Assembly: GCF_000430045.1 (NCBI RefSeq)
Contig: NZ_KE387029.1
Span: 32,047 to 83,151, forward strand
DNA: 51,105 bases
Direction of reading: 5' to 3'
From: Calidithermus chliarophilus DSM 9957
GTDB lineage: Bacteria > Deinococcota > Deinococci > Deinococcales > Thermaceae
The position numbers and the translations under genes were made by a program. Positions 24,671 through 48,470 of this stretch are shown in pieces. The notes below the pieces were generated by a model. The model was not told the origin of the DNA and searched no databases. It saw nothing but the letters and a program-made list of their open reading frames with translations. Within the stretch, counting starts at the first letter, position 1. Each line of letters opens with the position of its first letter.

Positions 24671-24909
24671 CGCCCCCGCCCCGGCACATCCTCACCCTGG
24701 TCCCCCCGGTGGGGACCAGGGTGCGCCTGGCGCGGCTGCCCGCGCCCCTGGACCCCAAGTACGCCGCCCTGCGCGACCGCGAGGGCGCCACCGGCACCGT
24801 GCGCCTGGCGAGCGACCTGGCGCGCCAGGTGTGGGTGGAGCTCGACGCCCCGCAGTCCCCCGGCGAGGGCTACTGGATCGACGTGGGGGCGCTCGAGGTG
24901 CTGCCGTGA
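24667..24909 (+). CDS. Small beta-rich protein upstream of recombinase
   Basis: An 80-residue protein from GTG 24667, coupled by GTGA overlaps to both neighbours. The pattern (TLVPPVGTRVRLARL, GATGTVRLASD, QVWVELDAP, GYWIDVGALEVLP) suggests a small SH3-like beta barrel. No function can be named. It might assist the recombinase it is coupled to, such as an excision factor, but it lacks a visible HTH. Confidence 0.6.
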   Translation: MTPPPRHILTLVPPVGTRVRLARLPAPLDPKYAALRDREGATGTVRLASDLARQVWVELDAPQSPGEGYWIDVGALEVLP

Positions 24910-25859
24910 GCCGCGGCGGATACCGCCCCCAAGCCTACCCCTGGGGCCAGGTGCTCCCCGAGCGGCGGGCCGAGCGGGTGCGGGCCTTCCTGGAGGCCGA
25001 CGACCGCGCCGCGCTGTGGGCGCTGCTCAGGCACCACCTCACCACCTGGGGGCGCGCGGGCGAGCGCACCAGCCGGGCCACGCTCAAGACCTACCGCTCG
25101 GGCCTCGAGGCGTTCTTCGGCTTCCTGCTGGCCCAGGGGCTGACCGACCCCGCCCGCCGCGCCCAGGCCGTGCTCGAGCCCCCCGAGGACTTCGGGGCCC
25201 AGTTCGTGCGCTGGCTCGAGCGCCGCCACCGCCCGGCCACCGTCAACGCCCGCCGGGCCGCGGTGCGGGCCTTCTACCGCGCGCTGCGCTGGGCCAGGGC
25301 GACCCAGGCCGACCCGCTGGCCGACGTGCCCAGCGTGCGCGACCCCATCCCCCCCGAGGCCAAGCGCCACCCCTACACCCCCGCCGAGGTCGAGCGGCTG
25401 CTCGAGCGGGCCACCCCCCACGAGCGGGCGATGGTGCTGCTGGGCGCCCACGGCGGGCTGCGCGCCAGCGAGATCATGGGGCTGGAGTGGGCGGCGGTGG
25501 ACCTCGAGGGCGAGGCCCTGCGGGTGCGGGGCAAGGGCTCCAAGGTGCGCCTGGTGCCCCTGTCCGACGCGCTGAGGGGGGCGCTGGAGGCCCTGCCGCG
25601 CGGGGAGGGCCGGGTGCTGCCCTGGCGCCAGACCGACAGCCTGCGCCGCCGCCTGCGCCGGTTGTGCGAGCGCGCCGGGGTGGAGTACAAGGGCGCCCAC
25701 AGCCTGCGCCACCACGCCGGGACCAGGGTCTACCGCGCGACCCGCGACCTCAGGCTGGCCCAGGAGTTCCTGGGCCACTCGGCCATCGCCACCACCGCCA
25801 TCTACGCCAAGATGGACCGCGAACACCTCACCAACGCGGTGAAAGAGGCTTTCCGATGA
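24906..25859 (+). CDS. int: Tyrosine recombinase (XerC/D-like integrase)
   Basis: A 317-residue site-specific recombinase. It has an N-terminal core-binding domain (about 20-125: LKTYRSGLEAFFGFLLAQG, TVNARRAAVRAFYRAL) and a full catalytic set: R186 (GGLRASE), K213 (GSKVRL), H265 and R268 (HSLRHH), H291 (LGHSAIATT) and Y300. The compact size and HSLRHH/LGHS motifs look Xer-like. GTG start 24906 overlaps the previous stop. No attP-like site lies beside it; two inverted repeats with 6-bp centres at 30.27 and 37.45 kb resemble dif geometry. It may integrate the phage or resolve plasmid dimers. Confidence 0.92.
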   Translation: MSRGGYRPQAYPWGQVLPERRAERVRAFLEADDRAALWALLRHHLTTWGRAGERTSRATLKTYRSGLEAFFGFLLAQGLTDPARRAQAVLEPPEDFGAQFVRWLERRHRPATVNARRAAVRAFYRALRWARATQADPLADVPSVRDPIPPEAKRHPYTPAEVERLLERATPHERAMVLLGAHGGLRASEIMGLEWAAVDLEGEALRVRGKGSKVRLVPLSDALRGALEALPRGEGRVLPWRQTDSLRRRLRRLCERAGVEYKGAHSLRHHAGTRVYRATRDLRLAQEFLGHSAIATTAIYAKMDREHLTNAVKEAFR

Positions 25860-29462: not shown

Positions 29463-29753
29463 ATGCGCAAAAATGATAGCACCGACAAAGAGGCTTCCCT
29501 CCAGGGCAGGCGCGACCTGCCCTGGCACGACCGGGACTGGCTCACGCGGGAGCTCGTGCGGCTGGGCACCGTGGCCGCAGTCTGCCGGGCCCACGGGATC
29601 AAGCCCTCGACCCTCTACGGGTACATGAGCCGCCACAAGCTGAGGGCCCCCCACCGGCCCTCCGAGTTCGGCAGGCCGCTCAAAGACCCCCAGCGCCCCA
29701 GCCGCACCACGCTGTGGCGCCGGAGGCGCCAGGGCGGGAGGGGTCATGGCTGA
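29463..29753 (+). CDS. Small HTH DNA-binding protein
   Basis: A 96-residue basic protein with a clear helix-turn-helix (LGTVAAVCRAHGIKPSTLYG, residues about 34-53) and a basic C-terminus (RRRRQGGRGHG). ATG 29463 follows GGGAGCAG. It overlaps the ParB-domain gene by 8 bp. The HTH resembles small phage regulators; it is one candidate for the activator of the late element, without direct evidence. Confidence 0.65.
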   Translation: MRKNDSTDKEASLQGRRDLPWHDRDWLTRELVRLGTVAAVCRAHGIKPSTLYGYMSRHKLRAPHRPSEFGRPLKDPQRPSRTTLWRRRRQGGRGHG

Positions 29754-30237
29754 GCTGAAGCTCGAGTGGTATCACTGCGCCTGGCTCGAGGGCCCCGAGC
29801 CCGAGCGCCTGTGGGGGTGGTACGTCAACCTGGCCTGGTATCTGGCGCGCGGCGAGCCCGCCCAGCCCTTCCCGGTGGCCGAGCTGCTGGAGGCCAGGGG
29901 GCCGCAGCACGCGCTCGAGGCCGCCAAGCTGACCCGCGCCGACCCCGACCGCCCGGTGCTGCTGGCCCCCCTGCCCCTGGAGTACACCGCGCCCTACTCC
30001 CCCGCCGAGGTGCTGTTCATGATCGACGGCCACCACACCCTGACCCGCGCGGCCCAGCTCGGGCGGCGGACGGTGCGGGGGGTGGTGCTCAGCCAGGAGC
30101 AGTCCAAGGCCGCGATGCTGACGCGGGAGGAGCTGGAGGCCCTGATCGGCGGGGCCGAGCCCTGGAGCGTGCTCAAGCGCTTCCACGTGGAGGGGGGATA
30201 CCCGCTGGTCCAGCTCCGGCACCACCACGGGCGCTAG
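29746..30237 (+). CDS. ParB/sulfiredoxin-fold protein
   Basis: A 163-residue protein with the ParB N-terminal domain signature MIDGHHTLTRAAQLG (residues about 92-106). ParB-type domains bind CTP or cut DNA, or act as DNA adaptors; this one lacks the usual HTH, so it is a single-domain member. Directly after its stop lie five tandem GTGATC units and an inverted repeat, which may be its binding site. Ends before a bidirectional terminator. Confidence 0.7.
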   Translation: MAELKLEWYHCAWLEGPEPERLWGWYVNLAWYLARGEPAQPFPVAELLEARGPQHALEAAKLTRADPDRPVLLAPLPLEYTAPYSPAEVLFMIDGHHTLTRAAQLGRRTVRGVVLSQEQSKAAMLTREELEALIGGAEPWSVLKRFHVEGGYPLVQLRHHHGR

Positions 30238-30239
30238 CC

Positions 30240-30269
30240 GTGATCGTGATCGTGATCGTGATCGTGATC
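30240..30269. repeat. Tandem GTGATC hexamer, five copies
   Basis: Five exact, directly adjacent hexamers in non-coding DNA right after the ParB-domain gene. Contains five GATC sites at 6-bp intervals. Candidate protein-binding array. Confidence 0.9.
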
Positions 30270-30270
30270 G

Positions 30271-35307: not shown

Positions 35308-37353
35308 TCAGGGACGGGCCTTCCAGCGCGCGCAGTTGGTGGTGGCGGGGGCGGTGCGCACGGGGGGGTGGGCGCCCAGGGACAGGGCCACCGCCGCATT
35401 CTCGCACCAGCCCAGGGCCTCGCCCTCGCCGGGGGGCTTGAAGTAGGCACAGCCCCGGCACTGGCGGCGGGGGCGGGCCTCGGCCAGGGCGCTGGGCCGG
35501 ATGACCTCGGGCAGTTGGTCCTGGTAGCCGCTGTAGGGGCGCTCGGGCTGGGGCTTGGCGTAGGCGAGCTGGGTCGAGCCCCGGACCCGCATCAGCCCGG
35601 CCACCGCGTAGCCGAAGGCGTGGACAAAGTGGGGGTCGAGGCCCAGGTGCCGGAAGGTGTACTGGTACTCGCCCTCGTCCACCACCTCGCCGCTGCCCTG
35701 GATGCGCCGGGTCTTGGGGATTTGGGTGCGGGCGACGTGCTTGAAGTGCTCGCGCATCTCCTCGAGCAGGGCCACCGGCTTGAGCCGCCCGCCCCGGCGC
35801 AGCTCGCGCACCAGGGTGTAGCCGTCCTTGGGCAGCAGCACCCGGCGGTTGGTGAACAGGGTCATGGCCTGGAGCAGGTGGCGGTAGCGGTGCAGGTCCA
35901 CCAGAAACTCCCACTTGGCCTCGCCGCTGGAGCGCTCGAGGCTCTTCTTCTCCCGCTGGTCGGCCCACTCGATGGGCTGATCCTGGGTGAGGTTGTAGTC
36001 GGCCAGCCAGACCATGCCGCGGGGCATCTCGCTGGCGACGGCCTTGGCGTAGTCGTAGGCGGGCTCGGCGTCGCAGACGACGACGTTGACCGCCCAGCGC
36101 CGCAGCAAATCCGTGGTGCGGGCGACGGCCTCGAGCCCGCTGGCCTCGAGCACCTCCAGCCGCACCAGCCGCACCAGGCCCCCCGGCGCCCACTCCAGGA
36201 TCACCACGTGCTTCTCCACCCCGCGCTGGTCGATGCCCGCCGCGCGCCAGGGGGAGTCGGGGGAGGGGCCCTCGGGGGGCCAGGCCCAGCCGTGCATCGC
36301 GCCCAGCTCGAGCGCGGCCTGCCACACGGTGTCGCCCACCAGGATGGCGTCGGGGTCGGCGTGGGGCAGGCCGAGGTAGGAGTTGTAGAACTCGCTGGGG
36401 TTCTTGCCCTCGACCACCATGCGCTGGTAGGCGCCCCAGAGGTTGGGCAGGTCGCCCGCGCCCTTGAGCACCTGGGAGAAGCTGTAGCCCAGCCACTCGG
36501 CGTCCTCGGGGCCCACGGCGTGAAAGAAGCCGTCCTGCACGTCGTGGATCAGGTGGCCGCAGCGGGGGCAGACGTACTCCATGCGCGCGGCGTCCACGCA
36601 GGAGAGCCAGGTCTCGAGGCTGTCGTACATGACGAACCCGGCGCGGTTGGGGCAGAGGGGGTTGGGGCAGCGGGTGTGCCACCAGTGCTGGGTCGAGCGC
36701 TGGAAGTAGTAATCCACGTCGGCGTTCGGCATCCCGGCGGTGGAGCCCATCATGTGCATCCCGCGCTCCCCGCGGGGGCCGACGAAGGCGCTCTCGGAGG
36801 TGCGCAGGAAGGTGCGCTCGATGGTCGCCACGTCCATCAGGCGCACCTCGTCGAACTGGAGGGCGTCGGTGGGGAAGGAGTCCACGCTCACCCCGCTGCG
36901 CATCCCGCGGAAGCGCATGTTGGAGACGCCGAAGCGCACCGCCTCCATGCTGTCCACCCCGCCCGTGCCCACGAGCTCGAGCATCCGGGGGCTGGAGTGC
37001 ATCATGGGGCGGAAGCGGGTCTTGTGCAGCTCGTACACCGCGTCCTGGGTGGGGAACATCAGCGCCACGTTGATCTGCTGGCGGGTGTCGGCGGTGAGCC
37101 AGGCCGCGCGGTAGATGAAGTGCAGGGTGAGGCCGAGCTGGGCGGCCTTGCGCACCACCAGGCGGTGGTAGAAGCGCCCGCGCTCCTCGCCGTAGAGGGG
37201 ATCGAGGTAGCGACGGCGCTCGAGGCTGAACTCCCGCGAGCCCTCGGGCCGGATGCCCGAGGCCAGGGCGAAGCGGCGCAGGGTGGACAGCTCCTCGGGG
37301 CTGAACACCGGGGGCGGCAGCCGCAGGGAGTCGAGGAAGGCTTTTTCAAACAT
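35308..37353 (-). CDS. terL: Terminase large subunit
   Basis: A 681-residue packaging ATPase-nuclease, GpA-like. A variant Walker A region lies around K69-T76 (KAAQLGLT), Walker B at D168-E169 (DALQFDEV), and a zinc ribbon has C229, C234, C262 and C265. The nuclease half begins at AAGIDQRGVEKHVVILEW and includes VVVCDAEPAYDYAKAVASE. C-terminal cysteines (CRGCAYFKPPGEGEALGWCE) add a second metal site. The P-loop lacks the classic GKT, which is common in this branch. It lies after the small subunit and a 130-bp gap with an inverted repeat. Confidence 0.9.
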   Translation of the reverse strand: MFEKAFLDSLRLPPPVFSPEELSTLRRFALASGIRPEGSREFSLERRRYLDPLYGEERGRFYHRLVVRKAAQLGLTLHFIYRAAWLTADTRQQINVALMFPTQDAVYELHKTRFRPMMHSSPRMLELVGTGGVDSMEAVRFGVSNMRFRGMRSGVSVDSFPTDALQFDEVRLMDVATIERTFLRTSESAFVGPRGERGMHMMGSTAGMPNADVDYYFQRSTQHWWHTRCPNPLCPNRAGFVMYDSLETWLSCVDAARMEYVCPRCGHLIHDVQDGFFHAVGPEDAEWLGYSFSQVLKGAGDLPNLWGAYQRMVVEGKNPSEFYNSYLGLPHADPDAILVGDTVWQAALELGAMHGWAWPPEGPSPDSPWRAAGIDQRGVEKHVVILEWAPGGLVRLVRLEVLEASGLEAVARTTDLLRRWAVNVVVCDAEPAYDYAKAVASEMPRGMVWLADYNLTQDQPIEWADQREKKSLERSSGEAKWEFLVDLHRYRHLLQAMTLFTNRRVLLPKDGYTLVRELRRGGRLKPVALLEEMREHFKHVARTQIPKTRRIQGSGEVVDEGEYQYTFRHLGLDPHFVHAFGYAVAGLMRVRGSTQLAYAKPQPERPYSGYQDQLPEVIRPSALAEARPRRQCRGCAYFKPPGEGEALGWCENAAVALSLGAHPPVRTAPATTNCARWKARP

Positions 37354-37483: not shown

Positions 37484-38215
37484 CTAGCCGACCCGGCTGG
37501 GCGAGACCTTGGGGAGCACGCGGGCCTCGAGCGCGGCGTGGACGCGCTCGTACTGCTCGAGGCTCAGCACCTCGAGCATGACCTCCTTGAGGGTTTCGGT
37601 GAGCGCCAAGAACGCCTCGAGCGCCTTGGCCTCGGCGTTCTTGGCGCGGGTCTCGGCGCGGGTCTTGATGGCGGCTACCACCCGGTAGGCGTGGTCGGAG
37701 ACCTCGCGGGTGTACCCGCTGACGAAGGCGTGCGAGCGGTTGAGCTCGCCCAGGGTGCGCCCGATCTTCTCCAGCAGGTAGGGGTCGGGGGCGTCCTTGA
37801 GCATTTCGGCGTACTCCTGCACCCGCTTGTGGGCGGCCTCGAGGCTCTCCAGGGCCCCCTGGAACTGCTCCTCCTTCTCCAGCAGCGCCCACACCACGGC
37901 CTTGAGGGTCGCCAGCTCCTCGTCGGAGTCGTCGAGGGCGCGCCCGCTGGCGTGCACGAGCTCACGCAGCTCCTGGATTTTGCTCTTGCCGCTCCTGGAG
38001 TACAGCCCGTGGGTCAGGCGGGCGGTGGTGGGGTCGGCCCTCGAGCCCTCCTTGACCCGCTTGGCGCTGCCGGGCCCGTGCTTCCAGCACTTGTCGAAGC
38101 CCTTGCGGGCGGGCTGGGAGCACTGCTTGCCGCCCCGGACCGCCTGGCAGCGGGGCATCCGCTTGCCCATGCGGCTGAGGAAGGGCTCGAGGGGCGGGTC
38201 ACGGTCTTTGGACAT
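37484..38215 (-). CDS. Terminase small subunit candidate with Cys/His motif
   Basis: A 243-residue protein directly before terL. The N-terminus has C23, C32, C43 and H46 (CQAVRGGKQC, CWKHGPGS), a small zinc module found in phage packaging and related proteins. The rest is a long helical, oligomer-forming body (LKAVVWALLEKEEQFQGALE, LEKIGRTLGELNRSHAFV). ATG 38215 is preferred over ATG 38221 because GGAG is then 6 bp upstream. Repeats upstream may be its binding sites. Assignment rests on position and fold pattern. Confidence 0.7.
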   Translation of the reverse strand: MSKDRDPPLEPFLSRMGKRMPRCQAVRGGKQCSQPARKGFDKCWKHGPGSAKRVKEGSRADPTTARLTHGLYSRSGKSKIQELRELVHASGRALDDSDEELATLKAVVWALLEKEEQFQGALESLEAAHKRVQEYAEMLKDAPDPYLLEKIGRTLGELNRSHAFVSGYTREVSDHAYRVVAAIKTRAETRAKNAEAKALEAFLALTETLKEVMLEVLSLEQYERVHAALEARVLPKVSPSRVG

Positions 38216-38232: not shown

Positions 38233-38254
38233 GCGGGCACACGGGGATGCCCGC
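38233..38254. promoter_or_regulatory. Inverted repeat in terminase leader
   Basis: GCGGGCA and TGCCCGC arms, 8-nt centre, inside the predicted 5' leader between late element L8 and the small-subunit ATG. May be an RNA hairpin that tunes translation or a protein site. Confidence 0.5.
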
Positions 38255-38263
38255 CCCCCTTAG

Positions 38264-38287
38264 AGGCTGCCACGCTCCAAGGGTCAG
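38264..38287 (-). promoter_or_regulatory. Late element L8 (terminase genes)
   Basis: Minus strand: CTGACC (38287-38282), 12 bp, CAGCCT (38269-38264). The start codon is about 48 bp further, so this copy has a leader. Confidence 0.6.
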
Positions 38288-38369
38288 GGCCTCGAGTCCC
38301 CCCTTGGAGGGGCTTGGAGGGGCTTGGAGCAGCAAGGGCCCCCTGGAAGCTCCAAGGGGCTCTAAGGGG
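38274..38369. repeat. Cluster of GCTCCAAGGG-type repeats; candidate packaging site
   Basis: Six copies of GCTCCAAGGG(G) or its complement: 38274-38283 direct, three inverted copies in a 10-bp tandem (about 38301-38329), 38349-38359 direct, and a variant with CTAAGGGG at 38360-38369. Non-coding, next to the terminase small-subunit gene. Fits small-terminase recognition (pac/cos R-site) geometry. The 265-bp gap 38222-38487 holds this cluster, L8 and a terminator. Confidence 0.6.
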
Positions 38370-38443
38370 ACGGGCGGGGCTAGGGGGCGCCCTGGGCGGC
38401 CAGCTCCCCGGCCAGCTCCACCGAGGCGTTGACGCAACGCCAA

Positions 38444-38470
38444 GAGCCCTCCGGGGGTGCCGGAGGGCTC
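38444..38470 (-). terminator. Terminator of replication operon
   Basis: Perfect 11-bp stem (GAGCCCTCCGG / CCGGAGGGCTC) with a 5-nt loop, just after the last gene of the minus-strand operon; TTGG follows on the minus strand. Confidence 0.75.
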
Positions 38471-38487
38471 CTCGTGTCGGGGCGCGG

Positions 38488-38721
38488 CTACCCCTCGGGC
38501 CAGACCCGCACCTCCAGGGTGCCGTCGCCCCTGGCGGTGACCTCCACGCCGCACCCCCGGCCCTGCGAGCCCAGCAGGCGGTCCAACTCCGCCCGAGCGG
38601 AGTCGCGCACCTGGGTGAGGACGTCCGGGGTGGCGAGTCGGCCTCCGTAGCGGCGCAGCAGGAAGCCCTCGAGGTGGGCCGCGAGGGCCTCGAGGGTTGG
38701 GCGGGATTCGCTCTGTGACAT
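38488..38721 (-). CDS. Small hypothetical protein
   Basis: A 77-residue protein with an N-terminal helical part (LEALAAHLEGFLLRRYGG, LTQVRDSARAELDRLLGSQ) and a C-terminal strand pair (VEVTARGDGTLEVRVWPEG). ATG 38721 follows GGAGGT. Last gene of the replication operon; family unknown. Confidence 0.6.
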   Translation of the reverse strand: MSQSESRPTLEALAAHLEGFLLRRYGGRLATPDVLTQVRDSARAELDRLLGSQGRGCGVEVTARGDGTLEVRVWPEG

Positions 38722-43833: not shown

Positions 43834-44085
43834 ATGGACATCGAGCGGATGCGGGCCCTGGGGCCCTTCGGCTTTTTCGTCCTCGAGGCCCTCAAGCGGC
43901 TCGAGGCGCAGTCCCACAACGGCTTCATCACCCTGGGCGGGCGCGACATCGCCCGGATGATCGGGCTGGGCAACGGCACGGTCTATCAGGAGCTCCAGAA
44001 GCTCGAGCGGCTGGGGCTGCTCGAGCGGGTCCAGCGGGGGCGGCGGATTTGGTATCGGCTCATCCCGCAGCAGAGGGCCGCATGA
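43834..44085 (+). CDS. Winged-helix regulator
   Basis: An 83-residue winged-helix protein (LGGRDIARMIGLGNGTVYQE, then LLERVQRGRRIWYRLIP) close in pattern to ArsR/PadR/MarR-type minimal domains. It is transcribed from P43.8 ahead of the initiator, and its stop overlaps the initiator ATG. It may control its own operon or replication timing. Confidence is high for DNA binding, low for target. Confidence 0.75.
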   Translation: MDIERMRALGPFGFFVLEALKRLEAQSHNGFITLGGRDIARMIGLGNGTVYQELQKLERLGLLERVQRGRRIWYRLIPQQRAA

Positions 44086-45041
44086 GCGCCCAGCGCTTCA
44101 CCACCATCCGGCGCTCGAGGCCGGAGCGGGATTTTTTCCTGATGCGCAACAGCGTCGCCCAGGACAAATCACTCACCCCCGAGGCCCTGGGCGTCCTGGT
44201 GTACCTGCTGTCGCAGCCGTGCGACTGGCGGGTGAAGCTCGAGGACATCACGGGCTTCCGCGCCACCGGGCGCGACCGGGCCTACCGCATCCTGCGCGAG
44301 CTGCTCGAGGCCCGCTACATCGTGCGCGAGACCCTGCGCGCCGAGGGCGGGCAGATCGTGGGCGTGGAGTACGTGGTCTACGACGAGCGCCAGCCGGTTA
44401 CGGAAAATCAGGAAGAAGTGACGGAGACACTTCTTCCTGAAAAGCCGGACACGGCAAAGCCGCATACGGCAAACCCGGACACGGCTGAGCCGGACACGGC
44501 AAACCCGGACGCATACAAAGACAGAGTTAAACAAAGCACGAAAATTACAAAGACGGATGATGATGGTGTCGCGCGCGCGCGCGAAGAAAAACCGGAGGTA
44601 ACCCCCCCGCCCCCCGCCGGGCGCGCTGGCGAGGGGAGTGAGCCGCCCCCGCAAGCCCAAGAACCGCCCGCCGACCCCTTCAAGTCTTCCCCGGCCACTC
44701 GTGACGAGTTTCACTTGTTGCGGGAGCTCGAGGCCCTGGGTCTGACCCGCGAGGGCAACCCCATGTCGCAGTGGGCCTGGCACTGCCACGGCACCGGCAT
44801 GAGCCGCGCCACCCGCCAGCAGCTCATGAGCGACTTCGCCGCCCTCACCCGGCGGCACGGGCTGGCGGCGGTGGCCGAGGCGGTGCGCGACACCATCCGC
44901 GCGGGGTCGAAGAGCTGGCGCTACCTGCTGCGCGTCCTCGAGGGGCAGGGCCAGCCCCAGCCCCAAGCCCAGCCCCGGCGCCCCCAGCCGGGCCGCGCCC
45001 ACGACATGAGCCCCGAAGCCTACGAGAGGGAGAGCCTATGA
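44082..45041 (+). CDS. Replication initiator (lambda O-like) with internal origin
   Basis: A 319-residue protein. The N-terminal 110 residues form a winged helix typical of phage/plasmid replication proteins (TPEALGVLVYLLSQPCDWRV, RAYRILRELLEARYIVRET). A low-complexity linker (PDTAKPHTANPDTAEPDTAN) is encoded by four 15-bp iterons. The C-terminal domain (SQWAWHCHGTGMSRATRQQL, about 240-300) is helical, as in DnaD/O partners of helicase loaders. The DnaC-like gene follows with an overlapping start, matching the lambda O-P order. Binding of its own iterons is inferred. Confidence 0.8.
   Translation: MSAQRFTTIRRSRPERDFFLMRNSVAQDKSLTPEALGVLVYLLSQPCDWRVKLEDITGFRATGRDRAYRILRELLEARYIVRETLRAEGGQIVGVEYVVYDERQPVTENQEEVTETLLPEKPDTAKPHTANPDTAEPDTANPDAYKDRVKQSTKITKTDDDGVARAREEKPEVTPPPPAGRAGEGSEPPPQAQEPPADPFKSSPATRDEFHLLRELEALGLTREGNPMSQWAWHCHGTGMSRATRQQLMSDFAALTRRHGLAAVAEAVRDTIRAGSKSWRYLLRVLEGQGQPQPQAQPRRPQPGRAHDMSPEAYERESL
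44408..44440. repeat. Long inverted repeat in initiator gene
   Basis: Perfect 13-bp arms (TCAGGAAGAAGTG and its complement) separated by 7 nt, placed 5 bp before the first iteron. Confidence 0.9.
44445..44512 (+). repeat. Iteron array, 15-bp unit, four copies plus partial
   Basis: Units at 44445, 44460, 44475 and 44490 with consensus CCGGACACGGCAAAN, plus a partial copy at 44505. In phase with the codons, encoding a PDTAx-type repeat. Confidence 0.85.
44513..44570. other. AT-rich stretch; candidate DNA unwinding element
   Basis: 37 of 58 bases are A or T by my count, far above the surrounding sequence. It follows the iterons directly, as in lambda and plasmid origins. A (GC)n run at 44571-44583 follows. 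Confidence 0.65.
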
Positions 45042-45866: not shown

Positions 45867-45977
45867 ATGACCGCGCCTGCCGTTACCGGAGCCGTTATCA
45901 TCTCCGGCGTAACGGTGGGGATTACAAAAATCGTGACAATCCGTGACATGGAGCAATACAAATGGCGACTACTGTAG
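45867..45977 (+). CDS. 36-residue hydrophobic peptide
   Basis: ATG 45867 follows the DnaC-like stop by 16 bp. Val/Ile/Thr-rich (GAVIISGVTVGITKIVTI) with a short charged tail. The ribosome site is weak and the segment also contains an imperfect inverted repeat (CCGTTAC..GTAACGG, about 45881-45916), so it may be regulatory rather than coding. Confidence 0.35.
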   Translation: MTAPAVTGAVIISGVTVGITKIVTIRDMEQYKWRLL

Positions 45978-46213
45978 ATAACAACCCGGCGCTCGAGGCC
46001 CTGCTGAACGAACTGGACACCACCGACGACCCGCAGGAGGAGGGCGAGCTGATGGAGCTGGCCCACCTCGCCCACCTCGCCTTCACCCGGCTCGGCGGGC
46101 CCAAAGCGGCCCGCCAGCCGCTCGAGCGGCTGGCGGGGGTGCTGACGGGCGGGCCCACGCCCGGGCTACTCGAGCGCCTTCAGGCCCTCTTCGATGGCGT
46201 AGATCACCAGTGA
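45962..46213 (+). CDS. Small acidic protein
   Basis: An 83-residue acidic protein (LEALLNELDTTDDPQEEGEL) with a helical C-terminus. GGAG lies 8 bp before ATG 45962. Its end overlaps the 3' end of the convergent ribbon-helix-helix gene by 48 bp, so transcripts would be antisense to each other. Could act as a partner or DNA mimic; unproven. Confidence 0.55.
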   Translation: MATTVDNNPALEALLNELDTTDDPQEEGELMELAHLAHLAFTRLGGPKAARQPLERLAGVLTGGPTPGLLERLQALFDGVDHQ

Positions 46214-46558
46214 GGACTGGGTGACGCGGGTCGGGTGCCGCTCCTTGGACAGGGCGGCGGCCGCCTCCTTGAGGCTTTCCTGGAGCTCGGGCCGCAGCCG
46301 GTTGGAGAGGGTGGGGTCGGAGGGGTGGGCCATCGGGAAGTACTCGGGCAGGGTCTCGGGCGCCGTGCGCCAGACCCGCAAAAACTCCGAGATGAAGCTG
46401 TCGAGCAGGTCGCCCACGTAGGTGCGGTGGCGCACGGCGGCCTCCTTGAGGCGGTTCTTGAGGTGCTGGGGCACCACCACCGTGAAGGGGGTGCGCACCG
46501 TCACCTCCTCGGGGCTGGGGCCGCGCATCAGCCCGGCGTAGACCTCGCGGTTAGGCAT
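46166..46558 (-). CDS. Ribbon-helix-helix partition partner (ParB-like)
   Basis: A 130-residue protein. The centre (TPFTVVVPQHLKNRLKEAAV, residues about 23-42) has the strand-helix pattern of a ribbon-helix-helix, and the C-terminus has a second such motif (HPTRVTQSSLVIYAIEEGL). It follows parA with overlapping stop/start, the arrangement of type Ib partition systems. It would bind a centromere site and stimulate ParA; the site is not identified. Confidence 0.7.
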   Translation of the reverse strand: MPNREVYAGLMRGPSPEEVTVRTPFTVVVPQHLKNRLKEAAVRHRTYVGDLLDSFISEFLRVWRTAPETLPEYFPMAHPSDPTLSNRLRPELQESLKEAAAALSKERHPTRVTQSSLVIYAIEEGLKALE

Positions 46559-47336
46559 GGGCCGTCACCCCCTCGAGCTTCTCCAGCAGCCGCTCCCCGA
46601 AGGCTTCGTAGTCCTTGGCCCCCCGGCTGCGGGGCTTGTACTCGAAGGCGGTCTGGCCTTTGGTCGAGCACTCGGCCAGGGCGGTGTTGCGGTGGATGAC
46701 CCCGAGGTTGCGCGGGCCCAGGCCCTCCAGCTCCTCGAGCAGCTCGCCCGCGATCTTCTCCCGCCGGTTGACCAGGGTGCCCAGCATCCCCAGCACCGCC
46801 GGGGCGGTGCCCAGCTCGGCCTTCATGGCCTCCAGCCGCCGGGTGAGGCCCCGGGCGCCGCTCTTGCCCGACCCGGGGGCCATCGGGACCACCACGAGGT
46901 CGGAGGCGTACAGAGCCACCAGGCTCACGAGGTTGACGGTGGGCCCCACGTCCACCACGCAGAAGTCGTAGCCCTTGAGCTCGGCCAGCCGCCGGGCGAG
47001 CGCCGGGTAGGGCCGGGGGCGGCGGGAGAGCTGGATTTCGACCTCGGCAATGCGCGGGTCGTTGGGGATGAGGTCCAGCCCCGGGCGCACGTCGAGCATC
47101 ACCAGCTCGGAGGCGCGCCGGAAGTGGCGCAGGGCCGGGTCGTCGTGGAGCAGCAGCTCGTACATCCCCGCCCTGGGCTCGTCGGGCAGGCCCAGAAACT
47201 CCCCGGCCTGGCCCTGTGAGTCGATGTCGATGAGGAGCACGCGCTTGCCCTGCTGGGCCAGGAAGTGCGCCAGGTGGACCGCGGTGGTGGTCTTGCCCAC
47301 CCCCCCTTTCTCGGCCGCTACTGCGATTGTTCTCAT
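46551..47336 (-). CDS. parA: ParA partition ATPase
   Basis: A 261-residue ParA/MinD-type ATPase. Deviant Walker A KGGVGKTT at residues 10-17 with both lysines, Walker A' LLIDIDSQGQ, Walker B-like FCVVDVGPTVN and VVPMAPGSGKSGARGL. It lacks the N-terminal HTH of type Ia ParA. ATG 47336 has AAGGAGG. Next to a ribbon-helix-helix gene and downstream of the repressor, it would be expressed in the lysogen and keep an extrachromosomal prophage. Confidence 0.92.
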   Translation of the reverse strand: MRTIAVAAEKGGVGKTTTAVHLAHFLAQQGKRVLLIDIDSQGQAGEFLGLPDEPRAGMYELLLHDDPALRHFRRASELVMLDVRPGLDLIPNDPRIAEVEIQLSRRPRPYPALARRLAELKGYDFCVVDVGPTVNLVSLVALYASDLVVVPMAPGSGKSGARGLTRRLEAMKAELGTAPAVLGMLGTLVNRREKIAGELLEELEGLGPRNLGVIHRNTALAECSTKGQTAFEYKPRSRGAKDYEAFGERLLEKLEGVTAHA

Positions 47337-48239: not shown

Positions 48240-48470
48240 ATGAGCCTCGACCTCGACACCCTGCACGCGCGCTTCAGCGCCCTCACCGGCGCGCAAATCG
48301 CCCGCGTCTCCGCCCGAACGGGCATCAGCCGCAACACGCTCTACCAGCTCAAGGACCGCCGCCGCCTCGAGCGGGCCAAGCTCGCCACCGTGCTCGGCGC
48401 CCTCCAGGCCCTCGAAGGGCCCCAAGACCCCCCGCCCCCCGCCTCTGACCCCTCGGGGGCGGGAGCCTGA
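48240..48470 (+). CDS. Small HTH protein (Cro-like position)
   Basis: A 76-residue protein with an HTH (IARVSARTGISRNTLYQLKD, residues about 20-39). It faces the repressor gene as Cro does in lambdoid phages, but its start is linked to a late-type element (L9), and it is followed at once by the portal. A TTG start at 48210 is in frame but lies inside L9; ATG 48240 is chosen. Confidence 0.7.
   Translation: MSLDLDTLHARFSALTGAQIARVSARTGISRNTLYQLKDRRRLERAKLATVLGALQALEGPQDPPPPASDPSGAGA
48445..48468 (+). promoter_or_regulatory. Late element L10 (portal)
   Basis: CTGACC (48445-48450), 12 bp, GAGCCT (48463-48468), 6 bp to ATG 48475. Confidence 0.7.

Follow-up and report, generated by a model that had tools for sequence, protein, structure and literature searches.

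The window, by which we mean the whole analysed stretch of 51,105 nucleotides from Calidithermus chliarophilus DSM 9957 (G000:C9:32047-83151), is the end part of a scaffold of 83,151 bases that contains 200 N, and it lies after the second gap. The host is a heat-loving bacterium, and its genome falls in the same family as Thermus sp. 2.9. Among the genes of the window are those for a large terminase subunit and for portal, single-strand-binding, sliding-clamp, ParA, integrase, replication-initiator and tail-like proteins. The element may persist as a plasmid or integrate, as indicated by the ParA locus and the integrase gene (24906-25859). CTCGAG-containing words are strongly over-represented in the window (CCTCGAGC, 98 found vs 14 expected) and CTAG is avoided (21 found vs 124 expected). 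Tandem CGTGAT repeats (30239-30270) directly follow gene 29746-30237 in an intergenic region between convergent genes.

A cluster of short repeats lies between gene 38488-38721 and gene 37484-38215, both on the minus strand. The features of this region are:

35308-37353, minus strand: large terminase subunit (phrog_675, E 8e-49; 58% to the Thermus phages Cumys and phiMa)
37484-38215, minus strand: probable small terminase subunit, 243 amino acids, with a Cys/His N-terminal motif followed by long helices; GGAG 6 nt before the ATG
38250-38375, no strand: entire array, 71% G+C, non-coding; its edges form an imperfect inverted repeat (38250-38266 / 38359-38375)
38259-38287, minus strand: weak sigma-A-like promoter candidate CTGACC-N17-TCTAAG (8/12), inferred, with transcription expected to start near 38252
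38259-38265, minus strand: heptad CTCTAAG, nearest to the gene, coinciding with the -10 box of the promoter candidate and lying outside the interval of the initial annotation
38275-38281, plus strand: heptad CTCCAAG, in the spacer of the promoter candidate
38303-38309, minus strand: heptad CTCCAAG, first of three with 10-bp spacing
38313-38319, minus strand: heptad CTCCAAG, second of three with 10-bp spacing
38323-38329, minus strand: heptad CTCCAAG, third of three with 10-bp spacing
38350-38356, plus strand: heptad CTCCAAG, first of two with 10-bp spacing
38360-38366, plus strand: heptad CTCTAAG, second of two with 10-bp spacing
38437-38477, minus strand: G+C-rich hairpin between the upstream gene and the array, a possible terminator; it has no T-run and is absent from the terminator scan

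The array comprises seven copies of the heptad CTCYAAG at 38259-38366 on both strands (five CTCCAAG and two CTCTAAG), with start-to-start spacings of 16, 28, 10, 10, 27 and 10 bp. The three-nucleotide spacers within the tandem blocks of either orientation read GGG on the plus strand. The initial annotation had described six units in both orientations within 38274-38369. All six are present (38275+, 38303-, 38313-, 38323-, 38350+ and 38360+), but the count was one short, since a seventh copy lies at 38259-38265(-). This confirms the repeat cluster and makes it slightly larger than described.

Counted on both strands, CTCYAAG occurs 13 times in the window, seven times within the array and six times outside it, and 17 times on the 83-kb scaffold. 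Compared with the density outside, the density in the array corresponds to a Poisson P of about 1e-17 for a motif that was picked after looking. The shuffle and simulated-window controls were motif-free, i.e. any 7-mer was counted. One 7-mer in five copies, as in the array, was reached in none of 5000 dinucleotide shuffles of the 127-bp array stretch and in 8 of 5000 when the 266-bp intergenic region was shuffled; five copies within 120 bp occurred in none of 60 simulated 51-kb windows. Over the whole window CTCCAAG is not enriched (11 found vs 7.7 expected), and neither is GCTCCAAGGG with up to one mismatch (9 found vs 9.5 expected). It is only the clustering of the heptads that is unusual, not the frequency of the word. 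Chance is ruled out for the existence of the array, not for a function.

That the repeats lie in non-coding DNA, as had been stated, agrees with the coding scores. The six reading frames of the array score between -0.55 and -0.88 per codon, compared with +0.43 for the neighbouring gene 37484-38215 and +0.08 for the weakest gene in our own gene prediction. We therefore call the array non-coding, despite the frame of the neighbouring gene being open through it (113 codons). Between the array and the ATG of this gene there are 43 nt, and the array does not extend into the coding start. No GATC is present in the array, and the 266-bp region is free of A/T runs of four or more.

The product of gene 37484-38215 is probably the small terminase subunit, judging from the gene neighbourhood in part of its relatives. 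In the window the large terminase gene starts 130 bp past this gene. In two viral contigs from distant lineages (L042 and L043) it overlaps the end of the homologous gene, and in L043 a portal gene follows the large terminase. In the nearest relative (G004), whose protein is about 40% identical, the large subunit starts 1.4 kb downstream of the homologue. The homologues of Cumys, phiMa, Lalka and Thermus sp. 2.9 are not adjacent to the large terminase gene, and in L031-L035 the large subunit was not found in the flanks fetched around the homologue.

Homologues are present in 9 of 111 genomes of the phylum when searched with the single sequence and in 8 of 111 with a profile, own genome included in both counts, as well as in five Thermus phages and seven viral contigs. 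All homologues in two alignments (10 of 10 and 7 of 7) share C23, C32, C43 and H46. Curated small-terminase models gave no match to the window protein, and the G004 homologue matched the NCBIfam model HGG_STG below the model cut-off. Weak matches of the relatives to small-terminase models were phrog_9231 (E 0.0075, one of seven) and phrog_10899 (E 0.12-0.61, three of seven); phrog_3678, of unknown function, was listed for all seven, with E below 1e-6 in six. A search with Pfam found no helix-turn-helix in the protein. Its predicted structure consists of long helices (mean pLDDT 74, pTM 0.45), and Foldseek searches of two libraries with this model gave no match at E 0.001 or better; the best hit among solved structures (E 0.0042) was discarded as coiled-coil-like noise. 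Neither family models nor the fold identify the protein as a small terminase with a good score. The proposed position next to a small-terminase gene thus draws on gene order in some relatives and is not backed by a strong family model. No close relatives of the window proteins were confirmed in viral contigs, and a scan of genome contigs yielded a single relative, Thermus sp. 2.9. A literature search on HGG-type small terminases or P1 hexanucleotides found nothing on point.

Across the 111 genomes of the phylum the array pattern was seen at a single place. It is absent from the 14 other upstream regions of the gene among the 15 compared, including that of G004. The outer inverted repeat raised the possibility of a mobile inverted-repeat element, which we rejected. 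The host genome has the core pattern at a single place, and the phage collection contains no match. Matches occur in 29 of 111 genomes, counting the host's own, but are otherwise short (22-60 bases, 75-95% identical). Two viral contigs with a triple CTTGGAG pattern (L054 and L055) were likewise set aside, as their near-identical flanks are A+T-rich, unlike the array region.

Repeats of a different sequence are found at the same place in related lineages. Exact direct repeats of at least 13 nt that touch the start of the gene (zone from -150 to +50, 13-nt cut-off set after looking) are present in 4 of 13 lineages, namely the window, Cumys, Thermus sp. 2.9 and L041, where 0.26 would be expected (P 7e-5). 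Without the window the result is 3 of 12 lineages (P 0.001); these three share one motif and so amount to little more than one independent case. The other nine of the 13 lineages have no such repeat. Each lineage entered the test as one row, with the start in Cumys placed 42 nt inside the annotated start; phiMa and L039 were represented by Cumys, L030 and L040 by L038, L033 by L032 and L044 by L043, and two Lalka phages were left out. The shared motif GGRAACCYCAYGG is present twice in direct orientation, 28-29 bp apart, at the gene start in three Thermus phage lineages:

L036:42023-42063, L037:867-907, L038:7951-7994, L039:7944-7984 and L041:96-146: GGRAACCYCAYGG pair at the start of the probable small-terminase gene

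GGRAACCYCAYG is present twice at the gene start, and these are its only copies in L036 (50 kb of Cumys), L038, L039 and L041; a third copy lies away from the gene start in phiMa (L037), and Lalka27a (L003) has a single copy, also elsewhere. Among the 111 genomes the AACCYCAYGG pair is found in two, G042 (at this gene) and G002. In viral contigs it is found in 39 stretches, three of which are on contigs of known relatives (L091, L095 and L101). The GGRAACCYCAYGG pairs are candidate packaging sites of these Thermus phages.

In G029, G009 and G037 the stretch just ahead of the same gene has a further conserved, inverted-repeat-like sequence, CCCTATGGAYGTTAGTGCTAGGG:

L032:7600-7622, L033:7764-7786 and L034:8724-8746: CCCTATGGAYGTTAGTGCTAGGG in three prophage-like loci

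When 16 loci from Thermaceae genomes and Thermus phages, the window's included, were tiled for clusters of at least five copies, four other places were obtained: iterons in the initiator genes of Cumys and phiMa (one place each), a phiMa gene with an internal repeat, and a place in L031. CGTTACC is present five times in about 120 bp at L031:9781-9907 (G065 locus).

The initial annotation had placed a late element, L8, over the first repeat unit and had taken it as a possible link between packaging and terminase expression. We rejected L8 as a phage late element. It shares only the CTGACCCYTGG box with the real repeated element, its full-element score is -1.0, with 15 scaffold sites at 18.0 to 40.8, and its distance of 35 or 41 nt to the start codon (two possible starts) is wrong. 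Sites that score as well as L8 number 172 in the real scaffold and 136-153 in each of five simulated scaffolds, so that L8 is at background and the link through it is unsupported. The matrix was built from 13 sites chosen by eye from the CTGACCC list, L8 excluded, and 13 of the 15 sites with a score of at least 18 are these training sites. The real element, CTGACCCCTnGCCGCGCCCACACTGRGGCYA, has eight of the 15 sites in the window:

3380, 5887, 7742, 16008, 16997, 18211 and 48445, plus strand, and 32646, minus strand: real element (a further seven precede the window on the scaffold)

These eight end at, or at most 8 nt from, a predicted start codon, which would suit a leaderless late promoter or an element controlling translation.

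A different sequence, the weak sigma-A-like candidate at 38259-38287(-), overlaps two heptads, and the other heptads lie upstream of it. The terminase transcript might start near 38252 from this candidate. Sites with at least four of six matches per box at the same spacing number 13 on both strands of the window, and a stricter scan listed no promoter between 37300 and 38900.

Taken together, we see about even chances that the array is a recognition site of the small terminase subunit, of the pac type (pac and cos are indistinguishable here), overlapping a putative terminase promoter. The initial annotation had proposed a candidate packaging site. Its position, its uniqueness, the probable identity of the gene and the repeats in three related lineages speak for this proposal, whereas none of the 14 other upstream regions has the array. 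Sites of this kind are known, and the array at 38259-38366 is a new candidate.

The strongest rival is that the heptads are an operator alone, bound by a phage or host regulator or by a self-repressing small subunit that controls the terminase genes with no role in packaging. We consider this possible, though clearly less probable than a recognition site; most of the evidence is common to both. Two heptads overlap the promoter candidate with the rest upstream, and short words in both orientations at a spacing of one helical turn are usual for operators. The phage also encodes further DNA-binding proteins, e.g. by the helix-turn-helix-like genes 43834-44085 and 48240-48470. However, regulators often bind at their own gene too, and no second array is present at any other promoter on the 83-kb scaffold. 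The promoter candidate is itself weak and was not recovered in the stricter scan.

It is unlikely that the array is a by-product without a protein partner, either repeats made by slippage or a stretch that folds as RNA or DNA. The core is indeed a 10-bp tandem repeat as slippage would leave, and the stretch folds somewhat better than shuffled sequences (z -2.1 for RNA and -2.4 for DNA). Slippage does not invert copies, however, and the heptads are found in both orientations. In addition, the tandem blocks show no clean pairing, because their spacers are GGG on the plus strand in either orientation.

A replication origin with iterons is very improbable. Clustered short repeats near replication genes would suit it, and the only clusters of at least five copies that can be placed in a replication context (Cumys, phiMa and L039) are iterons within initiator genes. 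The phage, however, has its own initiator gene at 44082-45041 (matching phrog_428 and others) with a gene for a DnaC-like loader behind it, and the array is 6 kb away. Repeats of the CCGGACACGG type are located within this initiator gene at 44441-44510, and CCGGATACGG repeats within that of G004. With CCGGAYACGG-type iterons inside the initiator gene both here and in G004, an origin at the array becomes less likely. Such repeats in the orthologous initiator genes mark a probable origin:

44441-44510 in the window and L013:4998-5120: CCGGAYACGG-type repeats

A partition centromere is just as improbable: proteins of the ribbon-helix-helix kind can bind sets of short repeats, both direct and inverted, and ParA (46551-47300) and a ribbon-helix-helix-like protein (46166-46558) are encoded, but the match of the latter is below its cut-off, an inverted repeat CCGTTAC/GTAACGG sits right beside the par genes (about 45879-45915), and the distance of about 8 kb from these genes to the array makes such a role unlikely.

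For the array as a recognition site we propose the following mechanism. The reading builds on the array, its rarity, the neighbouring genes and the same-place repeats in three related lineages, from which we infer binding by an oligomeric ring, cutting, the start of packaging and autoregulation. Subunits of a small-terminase oligomer would grip the heptads, several of which are one helical turn apart, and thereby mark the phage DNA. The large subunit, encoded by the next gene, would then be recruited and cut nearby, and packaging would start. Since the two gene-proximal heptads cover the likely promoter, binding there would also turn down terminase expression. If functional, the array should work by its sequence, as it is 71% G+C and has no A/T run of four. 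More tentatively, a small-terminase family with a Cys/His (probably zinc-binding) N-terminus, not a helix-turn-helix, may read lineage-specific repeats beside its own gene; the seven-heptad array may both start packaging and shut the terminase promoter, and the protein and the repeat word may have changed together among Thermaceae phages.

Outside a handful of model phages, few packaging start sites are known to have been mapped. With the 108-bp candidate and the second candidate motif in Cumys and phiMa, the roles of repeat sequence and DNA shape in small-terminase recognition become testable. Cumys and phiMa grow on Thermus thermophilus HB8, which makes the question approachable in these phages.

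The pac site of SPP1 contains direct repeats and spans the promoters of the small terminase (PMC6316719, PMC4737164). Like the array, the pac sites of SPP1 and SF6 have repeats beside the small-terminase gene; theirs overlap its promoters, those of the array a weak promoter candidate. SPP1 pac has direct repeats in three sets and extends into the gene, whereas the array lies entirely upstream, uses one word in both orientations and is G+C-rich. Binding and cutting have been measured for SPP1 pac and are predicted for the array. Bendable pac DNA with A/T runs has been proposed for SPP1-like phages (PMC4737164), and the array, at 71% G+C and with no A/T runs, is unlike this model.

For the Lalka phages, redundant termini have been inferred, with a comparison to P1 (PMC11437467); the word 'terminase' is absent from the main text of that paper. 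The pac site of P1 has seven hexamers in 161 bp inside pacA (PMC10028697). It resembles the array, where seven copies of a short word are found in little over 100 bp. The P1 hexamers lie within a gene and hold GATC methylation sites, whereas the array is intergenic and has no GATC. Other P1-like traits are a plasmid-type ParA in a phage and a DarB-like gene on the scaffold. Closest at hand are the GGRAACCYCAYGG pairs of Cumys, phiMa, the Thermus sp. 2.9 prophage and L041. They differ from the array in the word, in having two copies and in their direct orientation, and the packaging role is putative in both; in common with the array they have the gene family, the place and short repeats that are nearly confined to it.
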